From: Scolanthus callimorphus
Taxonomy: Eukaryota > Cnidaria > Anthozoa > Actiniaria > Edwardsiidae
Assembly (NCBI GenBank): GCA_033964015.1
Contig: CM066925.1
Span: forward strand, 8,974,204 to 9,038,203
DNA: 64,000 nucleotides
Direction: 5' to 3'
The translations under genes were made by a program, and so were the position numbers. The notes below the pieces were generated by a model. It saw only the letters and a program-made list of their open reading frames with translations, made no database searches and was not told where the DNA came from. Shown here piece by piece: positions 2,161-38,400 of this stretch; position 1 is the first letter of the stretch; the number at the start of each line of letters is the position of its first letter.

Positions 2161-3099
2161 AATAAGACACATAATTACGACATAATTACGGCATAAGGAC
2201 ATAATTGCGACGAGGTATTACCAAAATAACATACAACAGCCAGCGTACACAAAGTGAGCCTAACGCTAACTGCAGGCGACTGACAATAAAAAATCACGAT
2301 ACAACCCAGTGAGTCGGGCCTGCCAGCAAAACGCGGACAAACACACAGAAGCCACAAAACCAACAAACTACAAAGCAAACAGAAGACATAAATGCACACA
2401 ACGTTATGTACAAAAAGGCTCTCGAATCTGCAACCCACAGACATCTATATTTCCATGTATAGGCGAAGAGCAAACGATATACTGATGTTGCAATCCAAAC
2501 ATGTAAACAAACTGACTAGCACTCCGGATAAAAGTTCATGACGCGGATAAGGAAATGTGACACGAAAATGCAGGACCTACCACACTAAATACACCTCGTT
2601 ACTTCTACTTTTCCCGGAGCAGTAGCCGAGTTCTGTTCCGGCGAGTTTCTTTATGAACGACGAAAGATGCCAGAAACAAGTAGAGCTCGTGAGAGTGGAA
2701 ATGTCCCGAAACACCGACGGGAGACGCGTGTGGTCGTAATCTTGCGTAATAACTGGCCAAACTCTGACGAACTCAGGACAGTTTAAGAACGAGTGAACAG
2801 AGTGAAATGCGACAGGCAAAGCATATGGGCTCCACTGGAAACCTATAAAACAAAATAGAACAAACTCCGGTTTTAAGCTGATAGCCGAATAACATAAAGT
2901 GAAGCACATTTAACACAACGCACCGAGCCAAGCGACCACAAGCCAGGCCAAAATAGCACCAAATAATACTTAACTCGAGCCCACGGGAAAGGAGAAGAGA
3001 TGTAAACGAAGAAGGAGGAGACATTTATTCTTGAAGGTGGATTTGAAGGAAGTCTTGGCCGTGTTGAGGAGCGGAACCAGAAAGCGGCATCTGGCGCGA
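2161..3099. other. No gene recognised
   Basis: Overlapping ORFs of up to 110 codons occur on the minus strand, but none has a recognisable motif or exon-like splice sites. Nothing is called here. Confidence 0.5.
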
Positions 3100-3250
3100 G
3101 ATCTCAAAACCAACTGAATTGATTATGTAAATTTATATCTTATATGTCGCACACTATTCCCAAGTGAAAATAGGACCATGAGGCCGAAGTCTGAATGGTC
3201 TATTGATATCATAGCACACGAGGACGAGAGAGGTCTAATTGTTTTAGTAT

Positions 3251-4010: not shown

Positions 4011-4141
4011 CTTACACTCGCCATTGTTGATACACATCCCCGGGTCGCCGGCACCATCACATCTTGAGCCGTCAATCACAGGACCAAATAACATGTAGTA
4101 GTTACCACTGATGCACTTTAAAATGCACCGCTCACTTGGTC
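4011..4141 (-). CDS. ADAMTS exon: end of Cys-rich domain
   Basis: 131 bp; acceptor gtctttaag, donor gtatgt. It encodes [24 protein letters not shown] and [10 protein letters not shown], fitting the CxLxC and DGxxCxxxxxxMCIxGxC pattern. The good donor shows that at least one more exon follows, but none was recognised in 1-4005. Confidence 0.85.
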
Positions 4142-7100
4142 CTTAAAGACATACATAGAGGATATTATATGGGCCACGTGGAGATACAAACTGTTTTGTT
4201 TTAGAGTGTTGAAAATGTATCTGACGAGTGTCAGAGCGCAGCGACCACAGGGGGTACTCAGAGATAAAAATGATGTTGAGGTCCGACGTATTTTTTGGGT
4301 ATGAAATTTGTAGCAAAAGTATTATTTTGGGTTAAAAATTGTTACCAGGTATTTTTTGCGGTTGAAAAGTCCACAGGTACTTTTTTGGGGGTTGATCATC
4401 AAAATTCCAGGCAACATAAGCAGCCTTGGTATTAAACAGCCTTTTTAGGCTATTTTTTGGGGTATGAAATTGTGGGAGCAGGTATTTTTTCGGGTATAAA
4501 ATTTATAGCTCAGGTATTTTTTTGGGGTATGAAATTTGGAGCTCCGTCCCCCCCCCCCCCCCGTTATTTTATATCCAAGTACCCCCCAAGTACGCCTCTT
4601 TACGGGAGAAGCCAGACGCAATTTATTCATGCCAAAAAAGTCACTGGATTATAATCGCACCTGACTGATATTAGCATGCATAGTTTCTACCTCTCGTCGA
4701 GTCATCAAATTTGCATAAAACATTGATCTTAGATACGGAGGCAAGAATGTTTTTTCCTTATTTGATCAAGCACAACTTTCAGTCCACGTTCTCTCCTCTC
4801 AGGGGTCCAACTTTAAAAGGATGTCTTGAAGAACCTTTCCTTTTGTTTTGGTTCGCATTCTCTCGAGAAAATACTCCATTTAGCTGCACTATAATTCAGG
4901 AAAACAATAATCTACAAGTACAAACAAGGTACCACTGGGTTGACTGTATACGGGGTCGTATGACCACGATAGACTATAAGCCGTCTGAGCTTGGCACTGG
5001 GTTTGACGGGTGTTTGGGGTTCCGCTAGGGCATGCCTGAAAAAGTTCAAACAAAAAACGTCTCGGTTAAGGTGGCCCGCAGGTATACTCAGGTGTGTTAA
5101 GGCCTGACTTGAAAGGAGGTGGGGCTTATACGCGGATTCTTAAGGCAAAAAGCTGTTTTTGCAAATAACACATTAGCAAAATAGCTACCGAAATGGAACT
5201 TGGTATGAGTAACACGTCCCTGGACCTTAACTGTTCCATGCATTTAGTTGCTATGGAGACACAATTTTATAGTATCTGTAAGTACCGTTTAAAATTTACT
5301 TTCAATCAAAACGGGGAAAACTTACTGCCAATTTTCCTACTTTTTGACCCTAAATTCGTAATCTTCATGGACTTCTGCATTTCATAGCGTTTTTTAATCG
5401 TGTCCAGGGTCACGTGATCGTGAGAACTGTTGCCCTAGCAACCAAGTTTCTCTCCTATCTCCGCTAATTTTCAAGGTGGTCAGCCTTAAAAGACGCTCTA
5501 TTGAAGGAATAAATGCAGTAAAGGAAAATTCCATCGTATTTTCAGAATAGGATGAGGTTTTCTGTTCCCCATTTTAAGTTTTGTCCCCAAAATGGATAAA
5601 TATGGTACACGCCACTTTAATTTGGTTGTCATGGAAACATCAACTGTCAAAATTTTGCTGGTACTAGAATTAACACTGATGCAAAGTTTCATTGCTGTAG
5701 CTATTTTCGTATTCGAGATATTGGCAAAATTCTTTTCTGCCCGCGTATAAGCCCCAAGTCACTCCTTAACACACCTGAGTATAACGAAACTCATTTTGCA
5801 AGGCCAGTTAAGGGCTCTCAAAGTATCTGTTCAACCCAACATTTTGGACACCTCCTGATTTTTAAACGGACACAACATGCTTGGAAACAAAACTTTCATT
5901 TTTAGCAAATAACTTGCAAATCACTTCGTATACGGAGTCCCTAACTATTCTGCGTCCATGAAGCAAAAGATACTCTAAATGAGATCCTACATTTCGAAAA
6001 AAAGTCACATTGCTCAACATCAAACAGAGAAATATACGTCCTATTAATATTTAGCTAATGTAAATAGCTAAAATTGTAGTGCTAAAAATGCGTGCGCATA
6101 TATGCTACGCTAACCTCCTGGAAAAAATAAACGGAAGCTTTATTTACCGCGTTGTCGCAGTATTTGTAATCTTTATCAGATCCCACGCACAGTGCTCCGT
6201 GATTTTGAGGCCTAAAATGAGATAAAAGATAAACAGTAGCCAGCATGCAGGCGCTAGTTGGTTAGAAAGAGATTTTTCTTTTTGCGCGCGAACAGTGGCC
6301 TTGGAAAACCCCTTACGATATCAACCGCTTGAGGCGAGCTTGCAAGCGTAGCGCCTTTAACCATCTCTGTTGTGTTGATTAAACTGCAAACCAACTGATG
6401 GCAATACCCACTGCAAAACAGGGACAGTACCTTGAATCAAGAAAACAATTGACTGAAAAGAATGTGAAAGATGTTTCACTTCGGCAACACGTTTGACGTG
6501 TGCTTGAACACACCTAAAGAGCCTAAATGCTTGATATGCTCAGCAACCATACACACACGCAAACACACCAATCAACAACCTACACCTGTTTGTTCTCTTG
6601 TTTGTGTACCGTGTACAGCCTCAAAGAATTTAAAGGGGCACTCGCACGCTTAATTTTTGGACAACCTGTCAAAAAATAAGTATAATTCTAATCACCAAAA
6701 ATACATTTAAGTTTACCGGAATAACCAAAATAACAGTCTGGTAAGTTAAATGACCTTTTAGTTGTTAAATCAATACAAATCTATAGTGTTTTTATCTATA
6801 AATCAAGAGGATGGAATTGGATTGCGATTTGCATTATTTTCTTGTCAGGCAAGCGTGCGAGTGCCCCTTTAACGTTATATCTCGAGACAGTTATTATTAG
6901 GGTACTAGAATGGTCCTAGAATGGTCCATTGCGATTTTGAGCAAACCATTGTCTCTATAAACGTCACTCGTTCACAGGCACGCTGCTGAGCCAATACGAA
7001 AATAATGCGAAGCTTGGAGACTTTTGAATTTGAAGCTTGGAGACGCAGTCTGGTACCCAGGGTTATACAAGTAGCGAGCACTTTAATAGCGGAGCTCCTT

Positions 7101-10100
7101 AGCGGCCGAAGGCCGCAGAGCGGAGCACCATAGATTTCGCAGGAAGAATACAATAGAACTCCGGTATACGATCGACTTCATTTTTCATGGTTCAGCGGTA
7201 TTCCCATTTGGGTATCGGGGGCGCGTCCGTGTCAGCGCGCCCCTACCGCAGGCAACCCAAACCGTATTTCATTTCCGCGGGAAAATACTGCGCGTCCGTT
7301 TAGAGAAAAATACGTAACCGGGAGCTCCGCTTTGAGCCAGTAGCTAAATCTATATAATAAGGAATATTTCGATCACTTTTCGCGAGCATTACCAACCAGC
7401 ATTGCTTATCATCGACGAGCAATCGAGCATCGAATAATATACTCCGCGAGCAAGCGAGCACCGCAAATTTCATCGCCGCGCGAGATGTGAGCATAATCGT
7501 TTTTTGATAGACCATTGGGGGCCCTATTGTTGGTACATACGCAGGATTTGTGCAAGCCCGCGACCTTATTTGTACCCCTCCACCGCAGGTGTGTGAGCAG
7601 CTTCCCCAGGCGCCCCATTCTCCCCAACCACCGTCTATAGGAGCCGGTCCTGAGGATCCTGTGTCAACGCACTGGCCATAGCGACACCACTGAGAAGAGA
7701 AAAAGATACAGCATGAGGTACAAGGCTAGAGCCAGCCAGCCCGAGAGAGACAGACAGAGTGCCATAGCGACACCACTGAGAAGAGGAAAAGATACAGCAT
7801 GAGGCACAAGGCTAGAGCCAGCCAGCCCGAGAGAGACAGACAGAGTGCCATAGCGACACCACTGAGAAGAGAAAAAGATACAGCATGAGGCACAAGGCTA
7901 GAGCCAGCCAGCCCGAGAGAGACAGACAGAGTGCCATAGCGACACCACTGAGAAGAGAAAAAGATACAGCATGAGGCACAAGGCTAGAGCCAGCCAGCCC
8001 GAGAGAGACAGACAGAGTGCCATAGCGACACCACTGAGAAGAGGAAAAGATACAGCATGAGGCACAAGGCTAGAGCCAGCCAGCCCGAGAGAGACAGACA
8101 GAGTGCCATAGCGACACCACTGAGAAGAGAAAAAGATACAGCATGAGGCACAAGGCTAGAGCCAGCCAGCCCGAGAGAGACAGACAGAGTGCCATAGCGA
8201 CACCACTGAGAAGAGAAAAGATACAGCATGAGGCACAAGGCCAGAGCCAGCCAGCCCGAGAGAGACAGACAGAGTGCCATAGCGACACCACTGAGAAGAG
8301 AAAAAGATACAGCATGAGGCACAAGGCTAGAGCCAGCCAGCCCGAGACAGACAGACAGAGTGCCATAGCGACACCACTGAGAAGAGAAAAAGATACAGCA
8401 TGAGGCACAAGGCCAGAGCCAGCCAGCCCGAGAGAGACAGACAGAGTGCCAGACAGAGCTCGATACATAGCGACACCACTGAGAAGAGAAAAGATACAGC
8501 ATGAGGCACAGGCCAGAGCCAGCCAGCCCGAGACAGACAGAGTACGCCAGCCAGTCAGACCATACTAGTCCAATACTCTGACAAATTTATGCATGGTATT
8601 GTTCTTCTCCATTGTATTGCCTCGTTCTATAATACACTCCATTGCACTCCATTGTTTTAGACAAAGCCTTGCATAAATTTGTCAGTGTATTGGACAACCC
8701 TCAGTCAGACAGGCAGAGCTCGATACATAAACAACAGACAGATAGACAGAGCAAGATAGACAGATAGGCAGAGCCAGCCTCCCAGCCAGCCAAACAAACA
8801 AACACGCACATAGACAATATATAGACATACAGACAGAAGCAGAGAACCAGCCAGGCACATAGACAAACACACAGACACAGCAAATCCGACTGACAGACAG
8901 TGCCAGACAGATAAAAGGAGACAGCCAGAAAGATCAACGCGATAGAAATGCAGGTAAACAGAGAGATAGACAGATTCTTCCCCTTTACCTTTCCATCGCC
9001 GCATGTCGTACCCTCGGCTGCCGGTTCGTATGATGTAGAACAGGAGGAGGAGCTTGAAGTCTTGCAATATAGCCTAGTGCAGATTACCTACAAACAAGCG
9101 CATTTTTGTGAGTCTGGGCTAACGAAGGATAGAGTGGTGGTCGTAAGGTCTACAAGACGTTTGTCGCTGGTCGCCATACGAATTGGTGAAAATATTTCAA
9201 CTTTCGACCGACAGAAGGCCTGGGGGGATGGGGTGGGGGTACTCCCTCATGTCGAATATACGGGATGCTCCGCCCGACGGGGGCAGGGTTTTGAAATTTC
9301 ACTATATAAAAGGGTAGCAATTTTGTGAATTTTAACTATATAAAAGGGTTGAAGTTAATTAGATTCTGTTGAAGTAGAGAAAAGCGTTATTAATAATAGT
9401 GCTACGTTTTTTTTAGCTTTCAACGCTTATTTAAAATGGTTTTTTTTGCTGAAATTTCATTACTTCACAAGTGAAGACCATGCTACAGCGAAATAATACT
9501 AATGTTGCAACCATTTGAGGTTATTCATCAGCATAGGAAATGTGACCATTATTTACGTGATTATCTGAATAATCACAAATATCTGAATAATCACGAATAA
9601 TATCTGAAATCAGTTTAAAGGAGCTGTTGCAGGATTTTCACAAGAGTTTTTCAGGATAATTTTCCGTCTTGTGAGACCATTTTCGATAACGGTTCAAGCT
9701 TGAATACAATTTTTATAAATGATTACATTCCTGATTTTGTGAATTAATGATGAAATTCGATCCAGGAATTTCAAGTACTGTCCAGGAGTACAATAAAAGT
9801 GCAGGACTTTCCAGGTTTCCAAGAGCAATAAGAACCCTGAAAATGTGCGGAGCTCCTTAGCGGCCGAAGGCCGCAGAGCGGAGCACCATAGGTATCGCAG
9901 GAAGAATACAATAGAACTCGGCGGTATACGATCGACTTCATTTTTCATGGTTCAGCGGTATTCCCATTTGGGTATCGAGGGCGCGTCCGTGTCTGCGCGC
10001 CCATACCACAGGCAACCCAACATCCGTATTTCATTTCGGCTGGAAAATACTGCGCCTCCGTTAACAGAAAAATATGTAACCGGGAGCTCCGCTTTTAGCC

Positions 10101-13100
10101 AGTGGCCAAATCTATATATTACTGACTTACTCCATTAGCATAACTGCTTCCTGAGCAGTAGCTTGCCGATGACGTATGGATCATTCTACACTGGTCGTCT
10201 TTGCTGTACGTTTCACCGGGTAGCTCATTAGTAGATGGGAAAGACTCCTCTTGTGTGGGTGCATCATTCAAACAGCTAGAGCCACCACTGTTAAAGAAAA
10301 TAGAATGACAACTTCCCAGGGGGTACTCGGATATAAAAATGAGGGGGGGAGGGAGGTGAATGTGTTGGTGCATCATTCAAACAGCTAGAGCCGGCCACCA
10401 CTGTTAAAGAAAATAGAATGACAACTTCCCAGGGGGTACTCGGATATAAAAATGAGGGGGGGAGGGAGGTGAATGTGTTGGTGCATCATTCAAACAGCTG
10501 GAGCCACCACTGTTAAAGAAAATAGAATGACAACTTCCCAGGGGGTACTCGGATATAAAAATGAGGGGGGGAGGGAGGTGAATGTGTTGGTGCATCATTC
10601 AAACAGCTAGAGCCACCACTGTTAAAGAAAATAGAATGACAACTTCCCAGGGGGTACTCGGATATAAAAATGAGGGGGGAGGGAGGTGAATGTGTTGGTG
10701 CATCATTCAAACAGCTGGAGCCACCACTGTTAAAGAAAATAGAATGACAACTTCCCAGGGGGTACTCGGATATAAAAATGAGGGGGGGAGGGAGGTGAAT
10801 GTGTTGGTGCATCATTCAAACAGCTGGAGCCACCACTGTTAAAGAAAAATAGAATGACAACTTCCCAGGGGGTACTCGGATATAAAAATGAGGGGGGGAG
10901 GGAGGTGAATGTGTTGGTGCATCATTCAAACAGCTGGAGCCACCACTGTTAAAGAAAATAGAATGACAACTTCCCAGGGGGTACTCGAAATAAAAATGAG
11001 GGGGGAGGGAGGTGAATGTGTTGGTGCATCATTCAAACAGCTGGAGCCACCACTGTTAAAGAAAATAGAATGACAACTTCCCAGGGGGTACTCGGATATA
11101 AAAATGAGGGGGGGAGGGAGGTGAATGTGTTGGTGCATCATTCAAACAGCTGGAGCCACCACTGTTAAAGAAAATAGAATGACAACTTCCCAGGGGGTAC
11201 TCGGATATAAAAATGACGGGGGGGGGGGGGGGTCGGACGTATTTTTTGGGGTATGAAATTTGTAGTAAAAGTATTTTTTGGGTTGAAAATTCTACCAGGC
11301 ATTTTTTTAAGGGTCGGGGAAGGGGGGGGGGGGGGGGTGAATGAATCAGCGGGTATTTTTGGGGGGATTGAAAATTCTGACAGGCTAGTTGATTATCAAG
11401 ATACTGGCTTAAGCTGAAGCTATTTCTGGGAAAATAATGGGATGGGCATCATGTGTAAGCTGGTATTAGCCTTTTAGGCTAAAAAAGTTGGGTATTTTTT
11501 GGGTATTACGCTCTAACTCTATTGTGATTCTTTTTTTGTATTGTATGGGCTATTGACTATACACTTTGTTTCACGGGATTATGGAAAATACTCTAAGTGA
11601 CTATTTACAACATATTAGATATCAACATAAGTAGTTATTAAAAATACATTCAATAGATAATTTAGAAATAATGCCATGAAACATAATACTTTATTTTACC
11701 AAAAAGTATTATTTTTTAACACCAAAAATCCAGTTACTCAAATGAAGAATATAATTATAATATATATAACTTTAAAACATTGTACGCACGTGTTGAGGTA
11801 GGTTTGGATGTCTTTGCACGAGCAAGGCGACCATTCAAAAGCTGTAGCTGCACCACTAGCACCAGTACCAGACATAATGTTTACTCCATCGGGACAGACA
11901 TACGTGCCACTTGCATCATGTTCGGAACCAAGACTGTAAAATAAGAAAAATGAGTCAATCAAGGGGCCCGTTTCTCGAAACCCCAGACAATTATCGGCCC
12001 CTAGTTTATCGTTGTAATTTTCCCCTGCTTTCCTGTGCGAGAACCGGGCTATTTTGTAAGAAGTTAAGATTTCATAAGCCAATCAGAAAGCGAGTGATTC
12101 TCTTTCTCTAAAAATTGTGAAAATTATGAGCAGATTAATTATGAGCAGAAAATTATGAGCAGAAAATTATGAGCAGACACTTCAAAACACTTAATTACTT
12201 ATTGTCTGTCGTATTCCAGGTATGAAATTTCCTGAAAATGGTTTGAATCTCTGAATAGCAAACTTTTTACGGGATGGCCTGTTTGACGTAGTTGCAGAGT
12301 AGATAGTCTAGATTTCCGTTTAGTGGATACTTATATCGTTTCTTAATTCCCACATCCATTCGCCTTTGTCACGCTCCGCCATTTTGTTTCCAGAACGACC
12401 CGGCAAAGCTAATAAGGAGTGCTTTTGGTAGCTTTGTCAACTTTTGTACCCCAAATCCCAGCATCAGGCTTCGCTTTCCAACATGAGCAAAACCCGCGCC
12501 CTGCTTGGCCTCGTTTCCATGCTGAATAAATCGACTGTAAAATCCAAGATGGCGCTTGTGTGACAAAGGCGAATGAACAATCACTCGAACAGTCTCGGGA
12601 TAGCAGCAAAATAAATCTCAGCAATAGCCGACAAAGTTATGAATGCGGCTTCGCTTCATTGTTTGCATATTGCTAGCTCTGCCTTGTCTTTTCGAGGAGC
12701 TGACATGGCTGATAATAGCACACCCACAACCTAGTCCCTTGGGCTTCCTGTGCTCGGAGATGAACCGTGATGATGCGAAAGCATTGGGCCGCAAGGCACA
12801 CGTCTTACCAAGCACAGGAAGCCCAACCAGAACGCCAGGGACAAGGATGGCTCATCTCAAAGCTCCACCATGGCATATAACTAATCTTACTGGGCCGTCA
12901 CGTCACTAGTCCGTCAAGTCACACAGGTCTTACCAACCACAGGAAGCCCACCCAGAACGCCAAGGACTAGGATTGCTCATCTCAAAGCTCCACCATGGCA
13001 TATAACTAATCTTACTGGGCCGTCACGTCACTAGACCACGTCACACAGGTCTTACCAACCACAGGAAGCCCAACCAGAATGCCAGGGACAAGGATGGCTC

Positions 13101-16100
13101 ACCCCAAAGCTCCACCATGGCATATAACTAGTCTTACTGGGCCGTCACGTCACTAGACCGTCACGTCACACAGGTCTTACCAACCACAGGAAGCCCAACC
13201 AGAACGCCAGGGACAAGGATGGCTCATCTCAAAGCTCCACCATGGCATATAACTAATCTTACTGGGCCGTCACGTCACTAGACCGTCACGTCACACAGGA
13301 CCAACCACAGGAAGCCCAACCAGAACGCCAGAGACTAGGATGGCTCATCTCAAAGCTCCACCATGGCATATAACTAATCTTACTGGGCCGTCACGTCACT
13401 AGACCACGTCACACAGGTCTTACCAACCACATGAAGCCCAACCAGAACGCCAGTGACAAGGATGGCTCACCCAAAGCTTTACCATGCATGCAGTATTAAC
13501 TAAACTTACTTGTGTCCCGTTTCGTGCGCAATTGTGAAGGCAGACTGTAGACCCTTGTCTCGATTGATGGTACAGCTCCTTTGGTCAACACACATTCCCC
13601 TCACTCCCGCCAGACCTAAACAAACAATAGACACCAACTGGGGCATTCATCTACTACACTCAAGCCATATGCCATGTGCACATTTAGTAGTATAATTTAT
13701 GTTTAGATGGGTTATATTATATCCGCGACCTTTGAGAGTGAGAATATAGGTTAAGGAGAGGGGCGCATCTTTGTGGTGATGCGCATATTAGTTGAACTCC
13801 TTGCTCAAGAAAGCGTTTGAACCCGTATTCGTTTTAAAGTTACGTATTTTGCTGTGAGCTCTTGCTAGCACTTCAGGCATTCAGGATATCAGACGACAAT
13901 ATTTCATGTAATCTGTTTTCACCCTATACGGCGAGATTTAAAAAAATGACGAATTCGGCTTCTTATACCCTCCAGACATGCAGCAGAGAATTCAAATAAA
14001 TAAAAATAAAAATGTGTAAGGTTTGAAGTACTTCTATAAGTACAGTAAGCAAGTTAAGCTTTAAAACGTTATCGCGGTCATAGTCTTTTGTACCGAAGCA
14101 AACAAAATGATGCGTTAAATAACATTACTATTCGCATGCGAATAGACAATTCCAGCTATAACGCACGCGCGCGCTGCATGTCGGTCGATGTTGGACATTT
14201 GTCGGACAAACTGCTACAATTGCGCGCGCTGCATTCTGGTAGTTGTGGGGTGCGGCTTGGGCATTTCTGAATAAGGAAGAGCGCGTGCTTATAAGCAATT
14301 ATTGGATGAGGTTTTTGTGATCTCCAGAATAAACAATGTCGAGACAGGTGGAATCAGGCGAGGCCGTGAGGCCGAGCCTGATTCCACTTGGCGAGATATT
14401 GTTTATTCTGGAGATCACAAAAACGAATTCAATAATTGTTTTATTATACATTGATTCAGTAGAAATACTTTTATTTCTGTCAAGCAATTTATTTTGCACA
14501 AGCGCCTTGTTAAAATAGGGATAGCGCTCTAGTCCCATGATGCATTGCGCGCGTATCAAGAACCAGCTAGCTGATTCTTGAAGAATCAGCATGCTGATTC
14601 TTGGAGACCCACAAAGTGCGTGATTCCCAAAGTAAAGCGCGCGCTCTTAGCCAATCAGAATCGATATAGTGAGTACAATGTATAATAATAGCTGGAATCG
14701 TCCATTAGCTAGCCGCAAAATTCATGAATTTACGAGCGCATAGCTTCACGGCTATTTATCAAATCACTCCCAAATTGGTCAGCATGTTTTAAAATGATTT
14801 CGTTTCACATGCACTTTAAAACTAGTCATAGTCTATGCTGCGATGTGATCCTGAACCATTTTTAATTCAAATGAGGAAAACATAGTAGCTCATGTTTAGA
14901 CCCACTTCTAGAATTTGTCTTACTTACCTAGAACATTACCTCCTGACCAAGATCGCCTAGAACAAAAGAATAAACATATTTTAATGGCCCAGCATCAACT
15001 GGTAGCCTTGTCAAATTGATCAATTGTTTTCCGGCTGTTCTGATTGGCTAATATTCCGCAAAGGCTGCTGGATGTTGAGAGGGACATTGCTCAATATTCT
15101 GTTTTCTGCTTATCTAATATATATGTCTGAGTGATTGAATCCTACTGACGGAATAATGGAAATTTCAGCAGAAACCCATGGGAAAACTGAATTTCCTAAG
15201 GCACACGCATGGGAAGTGTTCGGAATTCACATGGATAGCCATGGGAAATCTGAACACTTCCCATTATTCAACCATGGGAAATTCAGATTCGAGTGAACAA
15301 CTCTGGGTGATTTCACGGAGGTAGATGATAGATCTTGTGAACTTATAGGGGGCTAGCAGGGCAATTTTTCACTGTAAAATGAAAACCAAACAGAGAAAAC
15401 ATGCGCGAACTTGACTCAAAGGTTTGATTGACGGAAGCCAGATACCATTTTCAACATGGCTCTCAAATTCCAGCCACGATCGCGCAAGAACCAGCACTAG
15501 CGTCTCGCATTTTTGCCGCGAACACCCTTAAAGATACCATTTTCTGGGAAAATTGGCCTTTTTTTGTCTTATGCCCTAAAAGATACTTGGCACTCTAATT
15601 TTAAAGGCCCATCACCAACCGGGAGCCTTTGCGTCCCGTTTTCTTTTGTTTTCAAATTGATCCATTGTTTTTCGGGCGCCCTGATTGGCCAAGAGTCCGC
15701 AAAGGCTCTCGGTTGGCGATGGGCCTTTAACTCCTAAAAGATAGGAAGTCACTATATCCCAATGGGTGAAACCAGAACGGGCCCAAATACTTAGATTTTT
15801 TCAGAAAACTTCAAAGAAAAAAAGCTTATAAAAATTATTGCTGATTCGATCCTGGACCAACATCATTATAAACCCGAGACTCTAACCACTAGGCTACGAG
15901 GGAGTTTGCTGGTCAGGTCACTAATTTTATGGCATTTTATGTAATTTATCATATATAGAACGAGGAATATACAGTAAAAATCATATCTAAAACAAACCAA
16001 ACCCCATCCTTACTCTAATCCCTAACAAATTACTGTTTTAGGACAGTTCTCTACACTTCTTGAATAAAACGAAGTATGATAAAAGATTTATATAGATTTC

Positions 16101-17159
16101 TGGTTTCAACCATTGGGATATAGTGATTTCCTAAAAGATACGACGAGCACCCCCGCCCGACGACATATTGGAGTCCCCCGCCGGGGTGACAACTTCGTAC
16201 TCCTACCTCGCTATCAGAGTAGCGTGATCGTAGTGTACCGGTTGTGAGTCATCTTGGTTATTGTTTGTGTGACTCCACTGACAGAAACTGTCAAGTGTTT
16301 GGTATGGATCATCATTGACTACAAGTCCGCTCTGCAACCAATCAATACATATGAAATAGAGCAGATTTCAGATGACCGTCGTGAAAGTAAACGCAATTGT
16401 GCAATCACTAGCCAATCAGAAACAAGAGTAATTACAACTTGCTGTTGAATGGTTTCCAGCCCAGCCAATCAGGAGCCAAACCAATTGGCTAGTTATTCCT
16501 TGCTTGTAATTAGTTCACAATTTGATTGGTTGATAGAAATAAGCAGCCAATGAGAAAGCAAACCAATTGCAACCGCAATAAAAGCACAACAGTCATCTGA
16601 AATCCGCTGTATCACCATATTAAGAAGAGGTGCCGTTTTGATAATTGCCTACGCGAACGCGACGCGGGTTTCCTGTGTAGCTAGTGCCAGGCTCTCTGGG
16701 TCAGCCAAACGATGGTAATACATGAATAAAACCATTTACAGTTATCTAACTCATGGAAATAACACAAGTTTGAACAAACGTTTGACGCAAAAGGGAGAAT
16801 GATTGTGTCGAGTTCTGGAAACTAACTCCGTGCATGAATCGCTCGAAATCTCTCACAATTTAGGTCTCAGGTTATAAATACGCCTCTTTCAAGAGAGGTT
16901 ACACCATCACAACAGTCTGTCTTAGCCCGTGATGCGCCATGGGAGACTTTAGGTACACACTGCTGATGCCAAATGATTCTACAGTAAGACTAACATCGCT
17001 CGCTCATGATATCGAAGTCGTATAGTAATTCTAAAACTGTGACGCTATAACTTGAGCAAACGAATACCCACTCACCTGCGCAGCTTCATGTATTAGGAGT
17101 TTGTTAATGACATAGTCAATCTTGGCACCGATTGAATTATCGGCAAGGAGGCCATGTAC
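4011..17159 (-). CDS. ADAMTS-type secreted metalloprotease gene (partial, ten exons)
   Basis: Ten exons with AG acceptors, GT donors and compatible phases read as one protein: 17159-17076, 14956-14928, 13615-13510, 11933-11790, 10287-10131, 9087-8989, 7689-7541, 6211-6148, 5035-4933 and 4141-4011. The domain order is catalytic (HETGHNLGSEHD across an intron), disintegrin-like ([12 protein letters not shown]), one TSP1 repeat ([15 protein letters not shown]) and Cys-rich ([13 protein letters not shown] to GMCINNGEC). That order is diagnostic of ADAMTS proteases, zinc enzymes of the extracellular matrix. Signal peptide, prodomain and the start of the catalytic domain were not found, nor was the exon expected between 17076 and 14956, nor a spacer or later TSP1 repeats below 4011. 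All ten exons are free of stops, so the gene looks functional. The subtype (ADAMTS number) cannot be assigned. Confidence 0.85.
4240..4565. repeat. Dispersed repeat with attttttgggtatgaa motifs and poly-C
   Basis: It starts gggggtactcagagataaaaatga, contains several copies of tattttttggggtatgaaatt, and ends in a C-run at about 4546-4562. Relatives are at 11205-11505, and its left end forms part of the 10.3-11.2 kb minisatellite unit. Confidence 0.6.
4933..5035 (-). CDS. ADAMTS exon: start of Cys-rich domain
   Basis: 103 bp; acceptor ctttttcag, donor gtacct. It encodes [14 protein letters not shown] (family pattern CPxxxxxFRxxQC; the usual Phe is Thr here) and ends in phase 1. Confidence 0.85.
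5085..5782. mobile_element. Foldback element within ADAMTS intron
   Basis: The left arm (5087-5135) and right arm (5741-5780) are inverse copies containing actcaggtgtgttaag and ggggcttatacgcgg. Further inner segments also pair. It lies about 50 bp upstream of the acceptor of the 5035 exon. No ORF of interest. Confidence 0.65.
6148..6211 (-). CDS. ADAMTS exon: end of TSP1 repeat
   Basis: 64 bp; acceptor cattttag, donor gtaaat. It encodes [18 protein letters not shown], the second half of the TSP1 repeat. Joined to the previous exon it gives [13 protein letters not shown]. Confidence 0.88.
6630..6872. mobile_element. MITE, 243 bp
   Basis: The TIRs ttaaaggggcactcgcacgc and its inverse lie at the two ends; the interior is AT-rich. 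It is in the ADAMTS intron between the two TSP1 exons. Confidence 0.75.
7091..7360. repeat. Dispersed repeat, copy 1
   Basis: About 270 bp starting ggagctccttagcggccgaa; a close copy is at 9849-10121. The two differ by scattered substitutions and small indels. Confidence 0.8.
7541..7689 (-). CDS. ADAMTS exon: WC motif and TSP1 repeat
   Basis: 149 bp. It begins [11 protein letters not shown] and runs into the TSP1 repeat [19 protein letters not shown] with the tryptophan ladder, ending RACTNP in phase 2 at donor gtatgt. Its acceptor (ttctcttctcag) is the last of a tandem series of identical acceptors in the minisatellite at 7675-8545. Confidence 0.9.
7675..8545 (-). repeat. Minisatellite (86 bp x ~10) containing a splice acceptor
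   Basis: Units start at 7675, 7761, 7847, 7933, 8019, 8105, 8191, 8276, 8362 and 8448; the last has a 16-bp insertion. On the minus strand each unit holds a pyrimidine tract, AG, and the first 15 bp of the 7689-7541 exon (TGGTGTCGCTATGGC). The lowest-coordinate unit is the real exon boundary. ORFs inside the array are periodic artefacts. Confidence 0.95.
8568..8697. mobile_element. Small hairpin element
   Basis: The arms gtccaatactctgacaaatt and its near-inverse enclose about 60 bp. It sits next to the minisatellite. Confidence 0.6.
8700..8935. repeat. Degenerate cagaca-rich tract
   Basis: Purine-rich simple sequence with many cagacag and agacaga motifs, resembling decayed minisatellite units from the neighbouring array. 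Confidence 0.6.
8989..9087 (-). CDS. ADAMTS exon: disintegrin-like domain, middle
   Basis: 99 bp, phase 0 on both sides; acceptor gtttgtag, donor gtaaag. It encodes VICTRLYC and [13 protein letters not shown], matching the DVCxxLWC and DGTxCGxxKWC pattern. The next exon supplies the WC. Confidence 0.88.
9849..10121. repeat. Dispersed repeat, copy 2
   Basis: Copy of 7091-7360. Its end lies a few bp from the donor gtaagt (10130-10125) of the ADAMTS disintegrin exon, so it inserted almost at the exon border without destroying it. Confidence 0.8.
10131..10287 (-). CDS. ADAMTS exon: start of disintegrin-like domain
   Basis: 157 bp. It encodes [11 protein letters not shown], then [16 protein letters not shown] and ASYC, a clear match to the LPGxxYxxxxQC signature. 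Acceptor ttctttaacag, donor gtaagt. The acceptor and first 36 bp are repeated eight more times upstream in the intron. A dispersed repeat (9849-10121) ends about 5-10 bp beyond the donor. Confidence 0.9.
10250..11215 (-). repeat. Minisatellite (~109 bp x 9) containing a splice acceptor and exon start
   Basis: The acceptor motif (plus-strand ccaccactgttaaag) occurs at 10282, 10395, 10504, 10613, 10721, 10830, 10940, 11047 and 11156. On the minus strand each unit reads tctattttctttaacag followed by about 36 bp of the exon ([11 protein letters not shown]), then diverges into a TE-derived segment (gggggtactcggatataaa). The 10282 copy is the functional exon edge. One unit has a 4-bp insertion (ccggccacc). 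Confidence 0.95.
11216..11505. repeat. Dispersed repeat with G-runs
   Basis: Continuation of the element whose left end was amplified into the 109-bp array. It has G-runs at about 11218-11232 and 11321-11338 and tattttttggggtatgaaat motifs like 4240-4565. Confidence 0.6.
11790..11933 (-). CDS. ADAMTS exon: third zinc ligand and Met-turn
   Basis: 144 bp. The acceptor ttttacag joins T to the preceding AA to give Asn, so the zinc motif reads HETGHNLGSEHD. The Met-turn is VNIMSG, followed by [15 protein letters not shown], the usual end of the catalytic domain. The donor gtgcgt at 11789-11784 leaves AC, which pairs with the T of the next exon ([11 protein letters not shown]). Confidence 0.9.
12800..13509 (-). 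repeat. Minisatellite (~124 bp x 5-6) containing a splice donor
   Basis: On the minus strand the unit begins gtaagattagttatatgcca and ends gacgtgacggccca, so each copy offers CA|GTAAGA. Donor-like motifs sit at about 12884, 13009, 13132, 13256 and 13378. The first, diverged copy starts exactly at the real donor (gtaagt, 13509-13504) of the HETGH exon. Confidence 0.9.
13510..13615 (-). CDS. ADAMTS exon with the zinc-site HExxH
   Basis: 106 bp. It encodes [16 protein letters not shown] through [10 protein letters not shown] and ends in phase 2 (AA) at donor gtaagt. The two zinc-binding histidines and the catalytic glutamate (HETGH) are here; the third histidine is in the next exon. A minisatellite begins immediately at this donor. 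Confidence 0.9.
14143..14702. mobile_element. MITE with gacgattccagctat TIRs and inner palindrome
   Basis: The left end agacaattccagctataa and right end with ttatagctggaatcgtcc-type inverse define about 560 bp. A perfect-looking hairpin lies inside (14312-14350 against 14385-14424). A shorter relative is split by the LTR retrotransposon at 36138/40608-40780. Confidence 0.65.
14928..14956 (-). CDS. ADAMTS micro-exon (29 bp)
   Basis: Only 29 bp, with acceptor tttgttctag and perfect donor gtaagt. It encodes RSWSGGNVL and its phase joins exactly to the next exon, giving [15 protein letters not shown], the stretch that precedes the zinc site in ADAMTS proteases. Confidence 0.75.
15601..15730. mobile_element. 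Hairpin MITE, 130 bp
   Basis: Arms ttaaaggcccatcaccaacc and the inverse ggttggcgatgggcctttaa. A more diverged relative is visible at about 14985-15075. Confidence 0.7.
15744..16131. mobile_element. TIR element with 9-bp TSD and tRNA-like core
   Basis: Imperfect TIRs of about 30 bp (ggaagtcactatatcccaat and inverse) are flanked by direct repeats taaaagata at 15735-15743 and 16132-16140. A 9-bp target duplication is typical of Mutator-like elements. No transposase. A tRNA-like segment lies inside at 15841-15903. Confidence 0.7.
15841..15903 (-). repeat. tRNA-like segment (SINE head or decayed tRNA)
   Basis: The minus strand reads tagcctagtggttagag, an A-box-like sequence, and about 30 bp later ggatcgaatc, a B-box-like sequence. 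The two boxes have the spacing of a tRNA. Stems are imperfect, so I call it tRNA-derived rather than a tRNA gene. Confidence 0.55.
16358..16610. mobile_element. MITE related to 3251-3539
   Basis: Starts agagcagatttcagatgacc and ends agtcatctgaaatccgctgt; the interior has agccaatcagaaac. Same family as 3251-3539, diverged. A more distant relative lies near 34960-35175. Confidence 0.65.
17076..17159 (-). CDS. ADAMTS exon: catalytic domain, first part found
   Basis: 84 bp, phase 0 to phase 0, acceptor cttgaaag, donor gtgagt. The translation contains [16 protein letters not shown], which aligns with the xxSIGxxIxxVxxxLxxL segment of ADAMTS catalytic domains. An exon carrying the following FCxWQ region must lie between here and 14956 and should end in phase 2; I could not place it. 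Confidence 0.65.
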
Positions 17160-23341: not shown

Positions 23342-25790
23342 TAGATAGATAGATAGATAGATATTCTTTATTTATCCACGGTAAAAATTCATCAGCTCAA
23401 TTATAATAATATAGAAATAATAAAATATAATACACTACCCTTATCTACGCTAGTTACCCTACCCACCCTACCCTCCCCGAGCTGCTTTCCATGAATGCCG
23501 TGCCCTATTTAATACATGATTTAAATTTCCTAAGAGACTCGGCTTGTCTTGTTTCGCTAGGAAGACTGTTCCATGTGATAGCACCGCTATAGCTGAAGCT
23601 GTTTTTATAATAATGGTTCGCGGTAGTGGAACGTTGACTTTGTTGTCCGAGTCTCTTAGGGAATATATCGATTCTCGGGTCGTAAATTTGCTGGAAAGAT
23701 AGCCAGGTGCCAGTCCATGCAAACATTTATAAACCATTGTTGCTCGCGCAATCTGTTGTTGGGAGCTTAGATTTTTCCATTCCAAATATTCAAAAAGTTC
23801 GCTAGCACTGGCATCATAGCTTGAGTGGGTCAAGACACGAGCTGCTCTATTTTGAAGCTTTTGTAGTTTATCATGGAGTGTAACACCACAGTTTCCCCAG
23901 ACGACATTGCAGTAATCAAAGTGTGGCTGTACAAGCGCACGAAAAATATTATGCATAGTCGTCTGAGGAACAAGGTGCCTCACTCGTTTGATTGCCCCAA
24001 TACCAGATGCAATTTTCTTGGTTAATTTATCTATATGTTCGCACCAATTGAGATTCTCATCGATAACCACTCCTAGTGATTTTGCTTTTGTCACTAGATC
24101 AATTTGCGCGCCATTTATCTCTGGCTGGGGAAGATTTGTAAACGTGCATAGCCTCTGCCTTGACCCAATCAACATAAACTCGGTTTTAGTCGCATTTAGA
24201 GTTAGTTTGTTTGCTATTAGCCAATTGTTGACATTTGCCAAGTCTTTGTTTAGGCATGATTGAATATTGTCGGCACAGGAACCCGCATACGTCAAATGAG
24301 TGTCGTCAGCATACATTCGTGGTTGACAATTATCCAAACAGTTTGGCAAGTCATTAATGTACAGTAAAAATAATAATGGCCCTAAAATTGTACCCTGTGG
24401 AACTCCACAGCTTAATAGGCAGGTTTGAGAGAGTGAGCCATTAATGGAACATTTTTGTGTGCGTTTGTCTAAATACGACTTGAACCAGTTATGGGCAATA
24501 TCTTGTATGCCATAATTGTCTAGTTTTGATAGAAGGACATCGTGATTAACAGTATCGAACGCTTTTTTCAAATCTAGGAAAACAACAGCGTTTACTTTTC
24601 CTTTGTCAATGTTATACGCCCAACTATCTGTGGCCTCAAGAAGAGCCGTGACGGTCGAATGGAGACTGCGAAAACCTGATTGGTATTTACAAATTATGTC
24701 ATTTTCAATCAAATAGGCATATATTTGGTCATAAACTATCCTTTCAAAGACCTTGGCTATAACTGAGACCACTGATATTGGGCGATAATTGTTCATGTCA
24801 TCACGATTTCCTTGCTTGAATAATGGTGTTACCCGGGCACTTTTCCAGTCGTCAGGGAATATACCGAGACTGAGAGACTGGTTGAATATATTACAGAGTG
24901 AAGTGCAAATAAGATCAGCGCACTCACGAATGAGTCTAGCTGATATCTTGTCAAGGCCAGTGGCCTTTGACTTATTTAGTTTGTTTAATAGTGAGAGAAC
25001 ATGATTTGAAGTGACTTGGCAGAACTGAAACCTTTTGTTTGTGCCAGTAAGAAAGTCTAAATGGCTATTTTTACTTTGCGCAGGGATATCACTCGCAAGT
25101 TTTGGGCCAATGGTGGCAAAGTGGTTATTGAATTCGTCTGCCAATTCAATTGGGTTTGTTATTGACTGCCCATTCACTTTAAGTTCTTTCACAGACGTTC
25201 TACCAGATTTCCTGGAAGTTATTTCATTTATTGTCTGCCACGTTTTCTTTGAATCACCCTGGTACTTGTTTAAGGTGTTTTGATAATATAGTTGCTTGGC
25301 TAACTTAATTTCTTTGTTTACTTTGTTTCTTTGTGTTTTGAATTGTGCCCAATCATCTGGGTCTTTTGTTCTAATCGCCCTAATTTTCAAAATATCTCTA
25401 TTATGCATAATATCCTTTAGCTCTGACGTGATCCACGGAGAACTACGCGAACGGCAACGCGAGGTTCTCAGTGGAGCATGTTTATTGACAATGGCAGAAA
25501 AAGTCTCCTTCCACGCGAGCCACATGCGGTCTGGGTCAGACCTAAGGTTATTTAGAGAATCCCAATTTTGGGTTTCAACGTCTCGACGAAAATTGTCGCG
25601 ATTAAAATTTCGAAAATTTCTATAAGTTATGCTAGTATGACCCTTATCAAAGCCATTTATAGATAATTTTCTGTATGCGAAAACTATACTATGGTCACTG
25701 ATGCCAATATGGCGGACACCAGAGCACACAATTTTATCCGGGCAGTTAGTGAAAATTAAATCAATCAAAGTTGCAAGTTCGTAGATCAAA
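23342..25790 (-). mobile_element. 5'-truncated LINE inserted in the PIN/CXC gene
   Basis: Same orientation as the host gene. It encodes the end of an AP-endonuclease domain (IGISDHSIVF) and a full reverse transcriptase (FLDLKKAFDTVNHDVL; catalytic YADDTHLTY), ending near 23468. The C-terminal tail has QNRAARVLTH and WNSLPSETRQ. The 3' UTR ends in an (ATCT)n microsatellite at 23344-23363, like the short-repeat tails of CR1/L2/Jockey-type LINEs. Its ORF is uninterrupted from the truncation point, so the insertion is fairly recent. No clear target duplication was seen; gttcgtagatc is duplicated locally at the 5' junction. Confidence 0.85.
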
Positions 25791-27621
25791 GTTCGTAGAT
25801 CTGAGTCTTGCGGTTCCGTGTAAATGATTGTGTATGCCTTCCACCACAGTGGCTGATCAAACGTGATGACGGGTGTGATGACGTTGTGAGACTTGCAGTG
25901 CGCGGAGATGTAATTCAATGTTGACGACACGCATGTGATGTCGGAAGAATTCATGTCGATCATTGGAAGGAACTGGATTGACGACTGACCTCTATGACTG
26001 CCATCTTGCACCTCTTGCATCATTCCAGACCAGCCTGGACGTAAGGGTGCCAAAAGAAGAGAACATTTCCATAGGACATCTAGATTTGCTGTTGGGTCTT
26101 GCACGTTTTTGATAGCAATCTCATTGTAAACTACTTGTAACTGATCGAGACGATTGTCAGAGGGAGGTCTGATTTCAACTTTTCCCGCGGCACATATATC
26201 GTCTGGTGAGACATGCCTCCTCGGTACCCTGACACTGTGCTTTGTTCCGGGCGTGACAGTGGCAACCATCCCCATTCCGTGGAAGGTATTATGACCATCG
26301 AGAGTTCTGATATTGTGGTCAACATTGTCTGCCACGTATTGAATAGATTGCCCTACAAATGATGGAATATCAGTCCCCTGATTCACGGCGGCATTCCGTT
26401 TGAAACGCAAAACTTCCCTGTAGCTTGAACTGAAGCCGTGACTATTCAAAGTGTCAATTAAAAATCTGGAAGCGTGGTTATGGTGAATCTGTACGGCCAG
26501 GCCAATCTGAAGGGGAGCGATTATCACTCGTGGTCTTGCTCCTTGTATAATAGCATGCCCGATAGATGCGATCTTAAGCTTATCCTTTCTTAGGAGAATC
26601 CCTTCGATCAACCTAATTAAGCACGATGGAACGAAAGCAAGCGAAGTGCCAACATTTTCTTCGATCAGAGGATAATAATCACTTTCTGTAGTAATCAACC
26701 TGATATCGCTTTTTATTAACTTCGCTGCAGTGTCAATTATACGCATTTTCTCTGACTCTGGGTCTGTGTCAAGCACCCGTTTCTGGTGGAACTCATGAAG
26801 AATAGCTGCCGCGGTGGTGCGCAACGTGACAACATTGGGCCTGCCATTTAAATCTGTTATGATAACCTGATCGCCGAAGTGTTGCTCGAGTTTAGCTTTC
26901 ATGTGCTTTGCTGAGTACGCCTCGATTCCTGAATTCTCTCCCCCAAGAAACTCTTGCATCTTAGTAACTAGATCGGACACGGTGTTTTGCTCATCATCGT
27001 ATTCCGTCAGAAATTTAACCACGTTCATAAAAGCTTCCGTTTTACTGTCATCTATGGGGCGGCCTTTTTTTGAGGGGGGTTGCTCTGTAGCATAGCTCCT
27101 TGGTATTTGCTTCTTTGTACGGAAGTTTACACTGCACGACTGATGATACACGGCGTCCGCGGCTGGCAAGTCGTGCACGTGCAGCAACCTCGCCCTCACT
27201 ACCTCCGCCCATGAATCTCCCCTCTCAACACATATTCGCATAACAGTATCTTGAGTTTCCAGAGTAGTAACCCTGAAAGCATCCTGGCGCTTCTTTTTCG
27301 CAGCCTCGAAATCAACTACCGTTCCACAATAAAAACAATCTGTATCAAAACTGAAAATGCTTTCAATATTGCGTACCAACGACTGACGCCTGACAGGGGG
27401 AGGGTTCCCTCTTTGGCTTGCGCAATATTGTGCGGTCGACAGTAAATGCGCCGACATTCCTTGTGAACATATTGCCCCGGGACTGTTTGAACAGAATTAT
27501 TTCTCTCCTTACTACATCTATTGATCCCATCGCTCCCTGTCTGGCGAAGTTGCACTAAGCTTCCCTTTTTTTCGACACCGAAACCAAACTCGCACAAAGC
27601 GCAAACTTGATCAACATCCAT
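25791..27621 (-). pseudogene. PIN/CXC gene, N-terminal half
   Basis: The first frame starts MDVDQVCALCEFGFG at 27621, after a possible acceptor ctttctacag, and runs through VHKECRRIYCRPHNI. The sequence then continues in another frame (RGNPPPVRRQSLV) from about 27.42 kb, implying a one-base indel. It then contains FDTDCFYCG and VYHQSCSVNF, spaced like zinc-binding Cys/His pairs. It ends TFDQPLWWKAYTIIYTEP at the LINE. The continuous 1,329-codon ORF here is a host-LINE chimera. Confidence 0.7.
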
Positions 27622-30109: not shown

Positions 30110-30440
30110 AAGAAACCGCAGCCACGTGTTGAAAACAAAGGAACACATCATTACGTATTCCTCCGCAATAAAGAACAAAAGAATACCTGTGTCAACAATT
30201 TTAATGTATTCCTCCGCAGTAAAGAACAAAAGAACACCTGTGTCAACAATCTTAATATATTCCTAAGCAATAAAGAACAAAAGAACACCTGTGTCAACAA
30301 TCAACCGCAACCTCATTAATTCCGCGTGGGGACGCTCATTAATTCCGCCGCAATAAAGAACAAAAGAACACCTGTGTCAACAATAAACCGCAAGCTCATT
30401 AATTCCGCGTGGGACGCTCATTAATTCAACCGCGACGCTC
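30110..30440. repeat. Tandem repeat with ccgcaataaagaacaaaagaa core
   Basis: Four to five imperfect copies (units of about 60-75 bp) of aataaagaacaaaagaacacctgtgtcaacaat, separated by cattaattccgcgtgggacgc-type spacers. Confidence 0.75.
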
Positions 30441-35474: not shown

Positions 35475-38400
35475 GTAAGAAGAAGCGATGGTAATCGGTG
35501 ATTCGCTGTTTTGTTTGTTGCTGCTGTTATTATTATAGTTCTTAGGACGGTGTATTTAACGCAAACAAACTGTCCTTCCGCCGCGTTTTATATGATTATT
35601 CACAGGTCCACGAGGTCTGCGTGGTTTCCGGGGAGTAGCAGGTACGTGTTTTCTTTACAGAAACTTATATAAATACTGCTACAGTCAGCTTACGTGCATT
35701 CCTAATCTCGAGGCCTTTTTCTTGAAAATTTCAACTTTTTAAAAATGTAAATTCACAATTTTATCAAAACCCTCTTAAACGTGGTGCACACTTACGACAT
35801 AACAAGATAAGAAAAGTATCACGCGAACCAAATTTAGTGGTTTCAAAACGTTGAAGTCCACAAAAAATAACAGAAAATTGTTTTGGTAAAGGAATGTAAT
35901 GATGATCCATGGAAAATACCGATTATTTCCAATATTTTCCCATGCTTTTTCGCTTCAACATAACGTCCTTATGTCACTAGTGTGTACCGGGCTTTACAGT
36001 AAAAGTAGCACTAGTATTATTATTCGTTTGAGAAGCTATTATCAAAAATTGGACAGTGCTTTTCACCAGGACTTCCCAATACCTCGAAGTGGGCTAAGCA
36101 AGCTCCGTTTTCAGCCTCGTTTTTGTTCATCCCAATGGACGATGTAGTGTTTTAATAAGTATTCTGTTATTTGATAGCTGTATCTATAAATATCTATATA
36201 TGTATGACGTATGTAACCACGTGATTCTTGTATTATATCAATGTATGTATTCTTAGTTTACTTGAGTTGAATAAAGTTCTTACGTATGATCAGAGCTCTG
36301 CGTATACTATTCTCTATAGTAGAATAACCGAACCCTGAAACTCGACAATTGGCGACGAGGATGGCGACTTCAACTCTTGGAACACTGGAACCTTTCGAAG
36401 CTTCAAAGGGGGATTGGAGTGCGTATACAGAGAGGTTCGACCAGTTTATCCTCGCAAACGATGTGGAGGGCGAAAAGAAGATAGTCGCCACGTTTTTAAC
36501 GATTGTGGGGAGCAAGACCTACAATTTGTTACGCGATCTGTTGGCTCCGGCGAAGCCGTCAGACAAAAAGTACAAGGAACTTATAGAGGTCCTAGGAAAG
36601 CATTATGACCCGAAGCCACTGGTCATAGCTGAGCGATTTCACTTCCACAAGAGAGAACAGCAAGAGAGTGAAAGCGTTGCGGATTATTGTGCCGCGTTAA
36701 AGAAAGCTTCGGAGCGTTGCGAGTTCAAAGCGTTCCTGGACGAGGCTCTGCGCGACAGATTTGTATGTGGCCTCAAGAGCAGAAACATACAGAAGAAACT
36801 GCTGGCCGAAAAGGATTTGACGTGGAACAAGGCTGTTGAAACTGCCCAAGCCATGGAATCAGCGGAAAAGCAAGCGAACAAGTTGGAAACCTTCCAGCGG
36901 GAGTGAACGCCCTATCGTCACGTCCCCGAGGGCAGCAGGGAAGACAAAGCAACTTTAAGAAAAAGGAATCCGGAAAACCTTGTTTCCGTTGTGGAGAGCA
37001 ACATAACCCACAAGAATGCAGGTTCAAGAATGTAGAATGCCACAATTGTAAAAATACGGGACATATTAGTAAAGTGTGTAAGAAGCCGAAGGTGGAGGAT
37101 GCCAAGAAGCGTGACATAAAACAACAACCGCGGAATTCTAACTTCCGATATTTAGACGAAGGAGATGATGATGATGGCCAAAATGAAGGGATGCTTGGAG
37201 ATTTATTTAAGATTGGAGTGAACGGCTCGGAACCTTCAATAATGATTCCTGTGAAAATCAATGGAACTAATATGGATTTTGAGCTAGACACTGGAGCTTC
37301 TCTAAGCGTGATTTCTGAAGAGTTATGGAAGGAGAAAATGGGAGATGTGGAGTTAGAGGATTCTAACGTGCGCCTGAAAACCTACACCGGAGAGGAATTA
37401 GAGATTTTGGGACAAACTGAGGTCAAAGTGAATTATGAAGAACAGGAGTGTGACCTTCCTATTCAAGTTATCAAAGGAAATGGACCAGCGTTACTAGGAC
37501 GTAACTGGTTAAGAGGCATTCGCTTGAATTGGGGATCTATCAGGCGTATAACGGAAGATCTTGATGACGTGCTGACAAAGCACAAGGTAGTATTTAAGGA
37601 CGAATTAGGAACGATGCGCGATGTTAAAGCTAAATTACACGTTAAGGCTGGGACCACCCCTAGGTTTTTCAAGCCCCGCTCAGTTCCGCACGCACTTAAG
37701 GGAGCAATCGAAAAGGAACTTGACCGTTTAGAGAGCATGGGAGCATTAGAAAAAGTAAGGTATTCGGAATGGGCCGCACCCATTGTAGCGATCGTAAAGC
37801 CAGATAATAGCATAAGGCTATGTGGGGATTACAAAGTTACGGTTAACTCAGCTCTTGAAGTTGACCAGCACCCTCTCCCTAATCCTGAAGATTTATTTGT
37901 TACCCTTAGTGGCGGGAAGAAATTTTCAAAGCTAGATCTTTCCAGAGCATATCAGCAGATTTTGTTGGACGAAGAGTCCAGAGAATTTGTTACTATTAAC
38001 ACCCACAGAGGACTGTACCGGCCGAGGAGACTCCCCTACGGCGTCGCCTCCGCCAGTGCCATATTCCAGTCTAAGATAGAGCAAGTATTGCAGGGGATAC
38101 CTATGGTAATATGTAGAGTAGATGATATTTTGGTTTCTGGCAAAACTGACCAGGAACACTTGCGCAATTTGGCTGAGGTTCTGACGCGTCTAGAAAACGC
38201 AGGTTTAAGGCTAAAACTCGCCAAATGTAAGTTCATGCAACCTTCTGTGGAATATTTAGGATATCGCGTGGATGCTACTGGTCTGCATGCGATTGAAAAG
38301 AAAGTCGAGGCCATTAGAAATGCGCCAGCGCCAACTAACCAACAACAACTTCGATCATTTTTAGGTATGGTTAATTATTATTCAAAGTTCGTGAGTAACT

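Follow-up and report, generated by a model that had tools for sequence, protein, structure and literature searches.

An ADAMTS-like protease gene of the cnidarian Scolanthus callimorphus carries tandem arrays of splice-site copies in introns 4 (array C), 5 (array A) and 7 (array B), three of four consecutive introns, with only a 2.1-copy 18-bp repeat in intron 6 (10130-9088). These arrays are probably "mirages", unstable tandem duplications of exon edges which, to judge from the DNA, would be tolerated as exon definition favours the terminal site. The kind is already known from amphioxus and from one human gene, IFI6, and the density found here is unusual; new are the occurrence of both types of splice site in one gene, the single-unit counterpart and the cnidarian host. 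The original prediction had described the array before exon 6 and missed two further ones in the same gene, one of them on a donor, as well as the known precedents.

An ADAMTS-like gene and its second copy

The window, by which we mean the whole stretch of 64,000 nucleotides analysed, spans C15:8974204-9038203, and searches of the organism's own genome covered 597 Mb in 302 contigs. Our exon model places 11 exons with consistent phase on the minus strand, giving 397 codons without a stop, and all ten introns have GT and AG ends.

4011-17159, minus strand: ADAMTS-like gene, 11 exons; the span is that of the modelled part only
17159-17076, minus strand: exon 1
16331-16207, minus strand: exon 2
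14956-14928, minus strand: exon 3
13615-13510, minus strand: exon 4, the HExxH exon with the zinc motif HETGH (exon model and domain search)
11933-11790, minus strand: exon 5, donor side of intron 5
10287-10131, minus strand: exon 6, end of the metalloprotease and start of the disintegrin-like domain, real acceptor at 10288/10287 (exon model and protein alignment)
9087-8989, minus strand: exon 7
7689-7541, minus strand: exon 8, end of the disintegrin-like domain and first half of a TSP1 repeat (exon model and domains)
6211-6148, minus strand: exon 9
5035-4933, minus strand: exon 10
4141-4011, minus strand: exon 11

The modelled protein has reprolysin, ADAMTS_CR_2 and TSP_1 domains and matches a fish protein of the name ADAMTS6 along its full length, with 37% identity and 100% query coverage; the open 11-exon model and this alignment uphold the earlier identification of exon 6 as an ADAMTS disintegrin exon. 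The exon 5/6 join is gap-free in the fish alignment, so that the comparison marks the terminal acceptor as the genuine start of exon 6, and four extra fish residues fall at the exon 7/8 join. Among the 19 matches of a protein search, the top scores belonged to TSP1-repeat proteins of molluscs, with a query coverage of just 15-17%. With a protease fragment of 193 residues lacking exon 7 as the query, Nematostella gave the better of two matches (53%), and no near-identical protein was returned by either of the two protein searches. Scanning the window for Rfam families and for tRNAs gave no hits, and neither did a search of a plasmid collection, in line with the animal origin of the DNA. The protease gene has as its neighbour a GRL101-like G-protein coupled receptor (62119-63069, minus strand), with Actinia tenebrosa (62%) and Exaiptasia (60%) as its best named matches and seven unnamed proteins higher, at 62-65%. 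Together with the Nematostella match, this fits a host that is probably hexacoral-like.

A second copy of the gene, also with 11 exons, lies about 102 kb away, between approximately C15:9082100 and 9092190. The exons of the two copies are 98.9% identical, with differences at 13 of 1191 bases and 4 of 397 residues; each copy has an open frame, and exon borders and intron positions are unchanged between them. A direct duplication of at least 47 kb with an offset of about 102 kb (C15:8944204-8991588 versus C15:9046087-9092386) has a substitution divergence of 1.57%, or 512 of 32,676 aligned bases, counted over 15 alignment rows of at least 900 bp at the right offset that overlap slightly in array C. 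This value is close to the 1.6% found between a C7/C37 pair of presumed haplotigs (35 mismatches in a 2203-base alignment), and the second copy may therefore have arisen by tandem duplication or represent the second haplotype, retained alongside the first. Whichever it is, the same assembly has a 9-unit and a 1-unit version: the second copy has one acceptor at exon 6 and one at exon 8, compared with nine and ten in the window copy. Array C is shared, with 5.6 copies in the window and 4.6 in the second copy according to Tandem Repeats Finder. Parsimony would make the single unit the ancestral state, and an array could also have contracted without leaving a scar.

With a near-identical second copy present, the window copy might be decaying, its arrays marking lost constraint while the second copy is functional. 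We consider this very unlikely given the 11 open exons, the agreeing phases, the ten introns with GT and AG ends and the small number of differences between the two copies.

Nine acceptors before exon 6

10252-11228, minus strand: array A, nine units of about 109 bp in intron 5 (Tandem Repeats Finder and acceptor search)
11189-11300 and 4248-4586 of the window: dispersed element with putative inverted ends, ...TATATCCGAGTACCCCC, found at 38 or more further places in the genome

Tandem Repeats Finder reported array A with a period of 109, 8.9 copies and 97% matches, which bears out the minisatellite of the original prediction. Each unit runs from a dispersed-repeat end, CATTTTTATATCCGAGTACCCCC (with small variants), through TGGGAAGTTGTCATTCTATTTTCTTTAACAG into exon sequence, presenting in this order the element end, a possible branch point, a pyrimidine tract, AG and the first ~36 bp of exon 6. 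Nine acceptors of the form TTTAACAG/TGGTGGC (minus strand; here and below a slash marks a border) have their first exonic bases at 11161, 11052, 10945, 10835, 10726, 10618, 10509, 10400 and 10287. The nine units had been described as ~109 bp long; each does have a complete acceptor and ~36 bp of exon, but the spacing is not uniform, at 109, 107, 110, 109, 108, 109, 109 and 113. As had been proposed, only the last acceptor, at 10287, continues into the real exon, and the other eight are decoys.

The last 41 intronic bases are identical across the nine units, except for one extra T in unit 4, and every unit has a plausible branch point, GTCAT with its A at -19, when judged against the branch-point consensus. 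Since decoy and real sites are indistinguishable in sequence, the choice in array A must rest on position. Mean pairwise unit identity is 94.7%, and variants private to single units occur in an ordered arrangement. The real exon 6 has GCACCCACAC; the decoy units probably retain the older base, because all eight agree with the second gene copy on GCACCAACAC.

Tandem arrays and C tracts are error-prone, and the two haplotypes may stand one after the other in this region, whose divergence resembles that of the presumed haplotig pair. The unit number, or the arrays themselves, could then stem from misassembly. The ordered private variants argue against this, as do the presence of arrays at three junctions and of one in another gene across two contigs (see below), and the joined stretch with both gene copies, of which 796 bases are not covered, contains no assembly N run. 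An artefact is in our view highly improbable.

The remainder of the unit had been taken for the end of a dispersed repeat about 30 bp before the exon, and our search agrees with this: the genome has at least 38 other places that match it from query position 1-3 to 108-116, and their ends agree. No more than 0.5 kb from such places we counted at least seven short inverted matches, which suggests that the element bears terminal inverted repeats; these counts are lower bounds, with the best candidates scored. The idea that insertion of a transposable element about 30 bp from the exon seeded the array survives in part. An element end is present there, but this was not sufficient, as the end of the element adjoins the exon in the second gene copy too, where there is a single unit, and simple seeding by the adjoining element is thereby weakened. 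The dispersed element also contains a 32-bp array (window 4451-4544) that is not tied to a splice site.

Arrays at exon 8 and at the donor of exon 4

7675-8541, minus strand: array B, 86-bp units with ten acceptors in intron 7 (Tandem Repeats Finder and acceptor search)
8570-8693, no strand assigned: small element in intron 7, bordering array B on its upstream side, whose inverted terminal repeats of 24 bp agree at 23 of 24 bases
12797-13509, minus strand: array C, units of ~125 bp in intron 4, starting from the real donor GTAAG at 13509 (Tandem Repeats Finder and donor alignment)

Array B holds ten acceptors CTCTTCTCAG/TGGTGT, each followed by ~13-15 bp from the start of exon 8; nine are decoys (8478, 8376, 8290, 8205, 8119, 8033, 7947, 7861 and 7775) and the real acceptor lies at 7689. 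Its units are 98% alike in Tandem Repeats Finder, with a mean pairwise identity of 96.9%. The joints read CGCTATG/TATCGAG in the first decoy unit and CTATGGC/ACTCTG in the remaining units, and the counterparts in the intron of the second gene copy are TTTATG/TATCGAG and CTGGC/ACTCTG; the same bases being present there, the joints share TATG and TGGC, respectively. The inverted-repeat element upstream of array B is missing in the second gene copy, which has a purely intronic 105-bp array of 3.1 copies, holding no splice site, in intron 7 just before exon 8.

In array C the real donor GTAAGTTTAGTTA... is repeated as GTAAGATTAGTTA... or GTAAGACTAGTTA..., giving five donor copies (13383, 13262, 13137, 13015 and 12890), and five of the six units contain a second, different GTAAG (13423, 13180, 13055, 12933 and 12808). 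The real site aligned with one unit at a score of 61, a value reached by none of 2000 single-base shuffles of the unit (maximum 24). Unit likeness is 91% in Tandem Repeats Finder and 92.9% as mean pairwise identity.

The units of arrays A and B, and of a further array on C7 described below, combine a splice site with adjacent exon sequence. Array C shows this in part, since it begins at the donor with at most 1-3 exon bases. The outermost unit alone is joined to the complete exon.

Consequences of decoy use

Spliced transcripts were built in silico for each decoy, and all 27 tested decoys led to a premature stop: eight of eight at exon 6, nine of nine at exon 8 and ten of ten after exon 4, the last comprising the five donor copies and the five other GTAAG. 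A working gene therefore needs the outer sites. The distances of the exon 6 decoys to the real site are, modulo 3, 1, 0, 1, 2, 1, 1, 0 and 2, and the two frame-compatible decoys, 11052 and 10509, also ran into a stop, so that the rule put forward earlier, a frame shift except in multiples of three units, fails. Frame-saving use of decoys was rejected, with no open frame from any of the 27, and the same count speaks against a minisatellite of the IFI6 type with coding inner sites. Exons started at decoys would measure 270-1031 nt (exon 6) and 235-938 nt (exon 8), versus 157 and 149 nt for the real exons.

In recursive splicing, a ratchet site has AG directly followed by a donor GT. The acceptors here read CAG/TGGTGG and CAG/TGGTGT, with no AG-GT, and we rejected this candidate as well.

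If the decoys were used, their copy number would set the share of stop-bearing, decaying transcripts and thus act as a variable brake on protease expression. Each decoy is a full acceptor leading to a stop, the number of acceptors differs between the gene copies (9 versus 1 and 10 versus 1), and in human IFI6 two downstream repeat units are reported to serve as donors and to yield isoforms (PMC4526556), a case that also counts against the tolerance of the arrays proposed here. We nevertheless think such a brake unlikely. In amphioxus, mirages reportedly leave splicing undisturbed (PMC3087553, PMC3902484), and three stop-making arrays within an otherwise open gene suggest tolerance. Nor do intact decoys need selection, as the units match at 97-98% in Tandem Repeats Finder and at 95-97% in mean pairwise comparison.

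A model for the origin and persistence of the arrays

We favour an origin of these minisatellites in tandem duplications with one end inside an exon or at its edge, which would make each unit a self-contained copy of a splice site; in arrays A and B the units would have taken a few exon codons as well. The initial duplication would have crossed the junction at very short matches. For array B such matches, TATG and TGGC, can be seen at the two kinds of unit joint. For array A we infer that exon sequence was first joined, through two matching bases, with a C tract lying upstream (ATTCA/TTCACCCC), and that a loss between this tract and a second one (ACCTCCC) then shortened the unit to the joint read today, ACACA/TTCACCTCCC. 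Slippage or unequal exchange may then have expanded and contracted the arrays, as the copy-number differences between the gene copies suggest.

The decoys lack an intact exon of normal length with its downstream donor, and it would be mainly exon definition that keeps splicing correct. Where a decoy was occasionally chosen, the transcript would meet a premature stop and presumably be degraded. The arrays are accordingly most likely tolerated by-products and not regulators. A co-transcriptional rule by which the first acceptor wins would favour decoy 1 and thus speak against this model; we judge exon definition likelier than such a first-come choice because RT-PCR reportedly found regular splicing of amphioxus mirages (PMC3087553). 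The model also gains from a similarly built donor array in a different gene, on C7, and loses from arrays near exons that hold no splice site, both described in the next section.

Distribution of arrays at exon edges

Across ~195 kb of C15 there are 12 arrays with a period of at least 30 and at least 2.8 copies. Those with a period of at least 80 and no fewer than 4.5 copies number five, of which four coincide with splice junctions in one or the other ADAMTS copy. Under a null model in which the founding unit was placed randomly within the gene, overlapping at most 40 exon bases, the probabilities of covering a splice dinucleotide were 0.090, 0.086 and 0.093, with a product of ~7e-4 that is post hoc and concerns one gene.

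We cut out 30 loci, 15 of them outside the two ADAMTS copies (L028, L030-L032, L036-L044, L046 and L047); they were chosen by similarity to the ADAMTS gene, mostly to TSP1 exons, and are not a random sample. A splice-site array was found in two of these 15, both counterparts of one locus. In this TSP1-repeat gene on C7 (L031, region of C7:16502587), the donor TTGCCCAA/GTGAGT and ~18 similar exon bases are repeated in a 47-bp array at a TSP1 exon (2327-3227), and the C37 counterpart has the same array (L032, 2317-3281). The motif GCCCAAG[CT]GAG occurs at least 18 times in L031, the real donor included, and at least 18 times in L032, with the array reaching near the ends of the pieces.

Exon edges in this cnidarian lineage might be hot spots of minisatellite birth, for instance linked to transcription or splicing, with unstable splice-site arrays in many genes and with copy number, as it varies from one gene copy or haplotype to another, acting as a heritable, perhaps somatic, dial on correct splicing. 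We regard this wider reading as doubtful.

Some arrays near exons are not tied to a splice site. A 273-bp array of 3.0 copies on C6 (L049) begins less than ~100 bp behind a related exon, and in L047 an array of simple sequence lies 0.5 kb away from an exon. Repeats of 19 bp in L037 (1340-1485) end with CTTAG before a TSP1 exon and are possibly degenerate acceptor repeats; the real acceptor is not clearly included, and we left them out of the count.

Relation to known systems

Amphioxus mirages are described for the globin genes BflGb6 and BflGb9, Adh3 and PGBD5 as tandem-duplicated intron-exon boundaries, at 3' or 5' ends, with units of 10-160 bp, many of which carry AG/GT signals; BflGb6 units are 81-100% alike and number six or three depending on the haplotype (PMC3087553, PMC3902484). 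The resemblance to our arrays lies in the minisatellite-like duplication of the boundary and the splice signals within units. Copy number, which in BflGb6 varies between haplotypes, varies here between two gene copies that may be paralogues or haplotypes, while the C7 array shows at least 18 donors in each of its two counterpart contigs. Here, in contrast, the host is a cnidarian and not a cephalochordate, three arrays sit on three of four consecutive introns with 9-10 acceptor copies, and a single-unit gene copy is found in the same assembly; the regular splicing reported for amphioxus from RT-PCR is a prediction for the present arrays. In IFI6, too, a minisatellite repeats a splice site at an exon edge, comparable to array C and the C7 array, but its repeat donors are described as giving isoforms, whereas every tested ADAMTS decoy leads to a premature stop.

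Genes in human segmental duplications have variable tandem repeats at exon-intron boundaries, linked to new introns or alternative splicing (PMC2812944), and they resemble the present case in having exon-edge tandem repeats that differ between recent gene copies, although intron positions here are unchanged. Such introns in human paralogues, and a model proposed for mirages (PMC3087553), would allow the ADAMTS units to be steps of intron gain, on their way to new mini-exons or introns. We give this almost no credence: the units of arrays A and B have no strong donor behind the exon piece when inspected by eye, unscored, and intron gain by tandem duplication was rejected on finding the same exon borders in the single-unit copy.

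Our literature search went by title and abstract opening, mostly without cnidarian focus and with most subscription papers outside it, and within that scope returned no cnidarian mirage. Mirages, known from lancelets in the literature covered, are now extended to a cnidarian. Nine near-identical acceptors in one intron, set beside a near-identical gene copy with just one, offer a natural experiment on whether the spliceosome, faced with equal sites, takes the first transcribed or the one next to the proper exon, and the still readable joints make the birth of minisatellites at exon edges open to study.

Other repeats in the window and its surroundings

Further arrays in the window lie at 499-905, 1620-2111, 30155-30427, 46655-47045 and 59216-60049, the last with five copies of 168 bp. 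Two 21-bp arrays in opposite orientation (46124-46570 and 47161-47566), with 58-bp repeats between them, resemble the two ends of a single large inverted structure. Long open frames at 36328-40367 (plus strand) and 23468-27496 (minus strand) appear by eye retroelement-like (gag/pol-like or reverse-transcriptase-like). At C15:9113956-9130117, units of ~4.9 kb that are ~98-99% alike stand head to tail.
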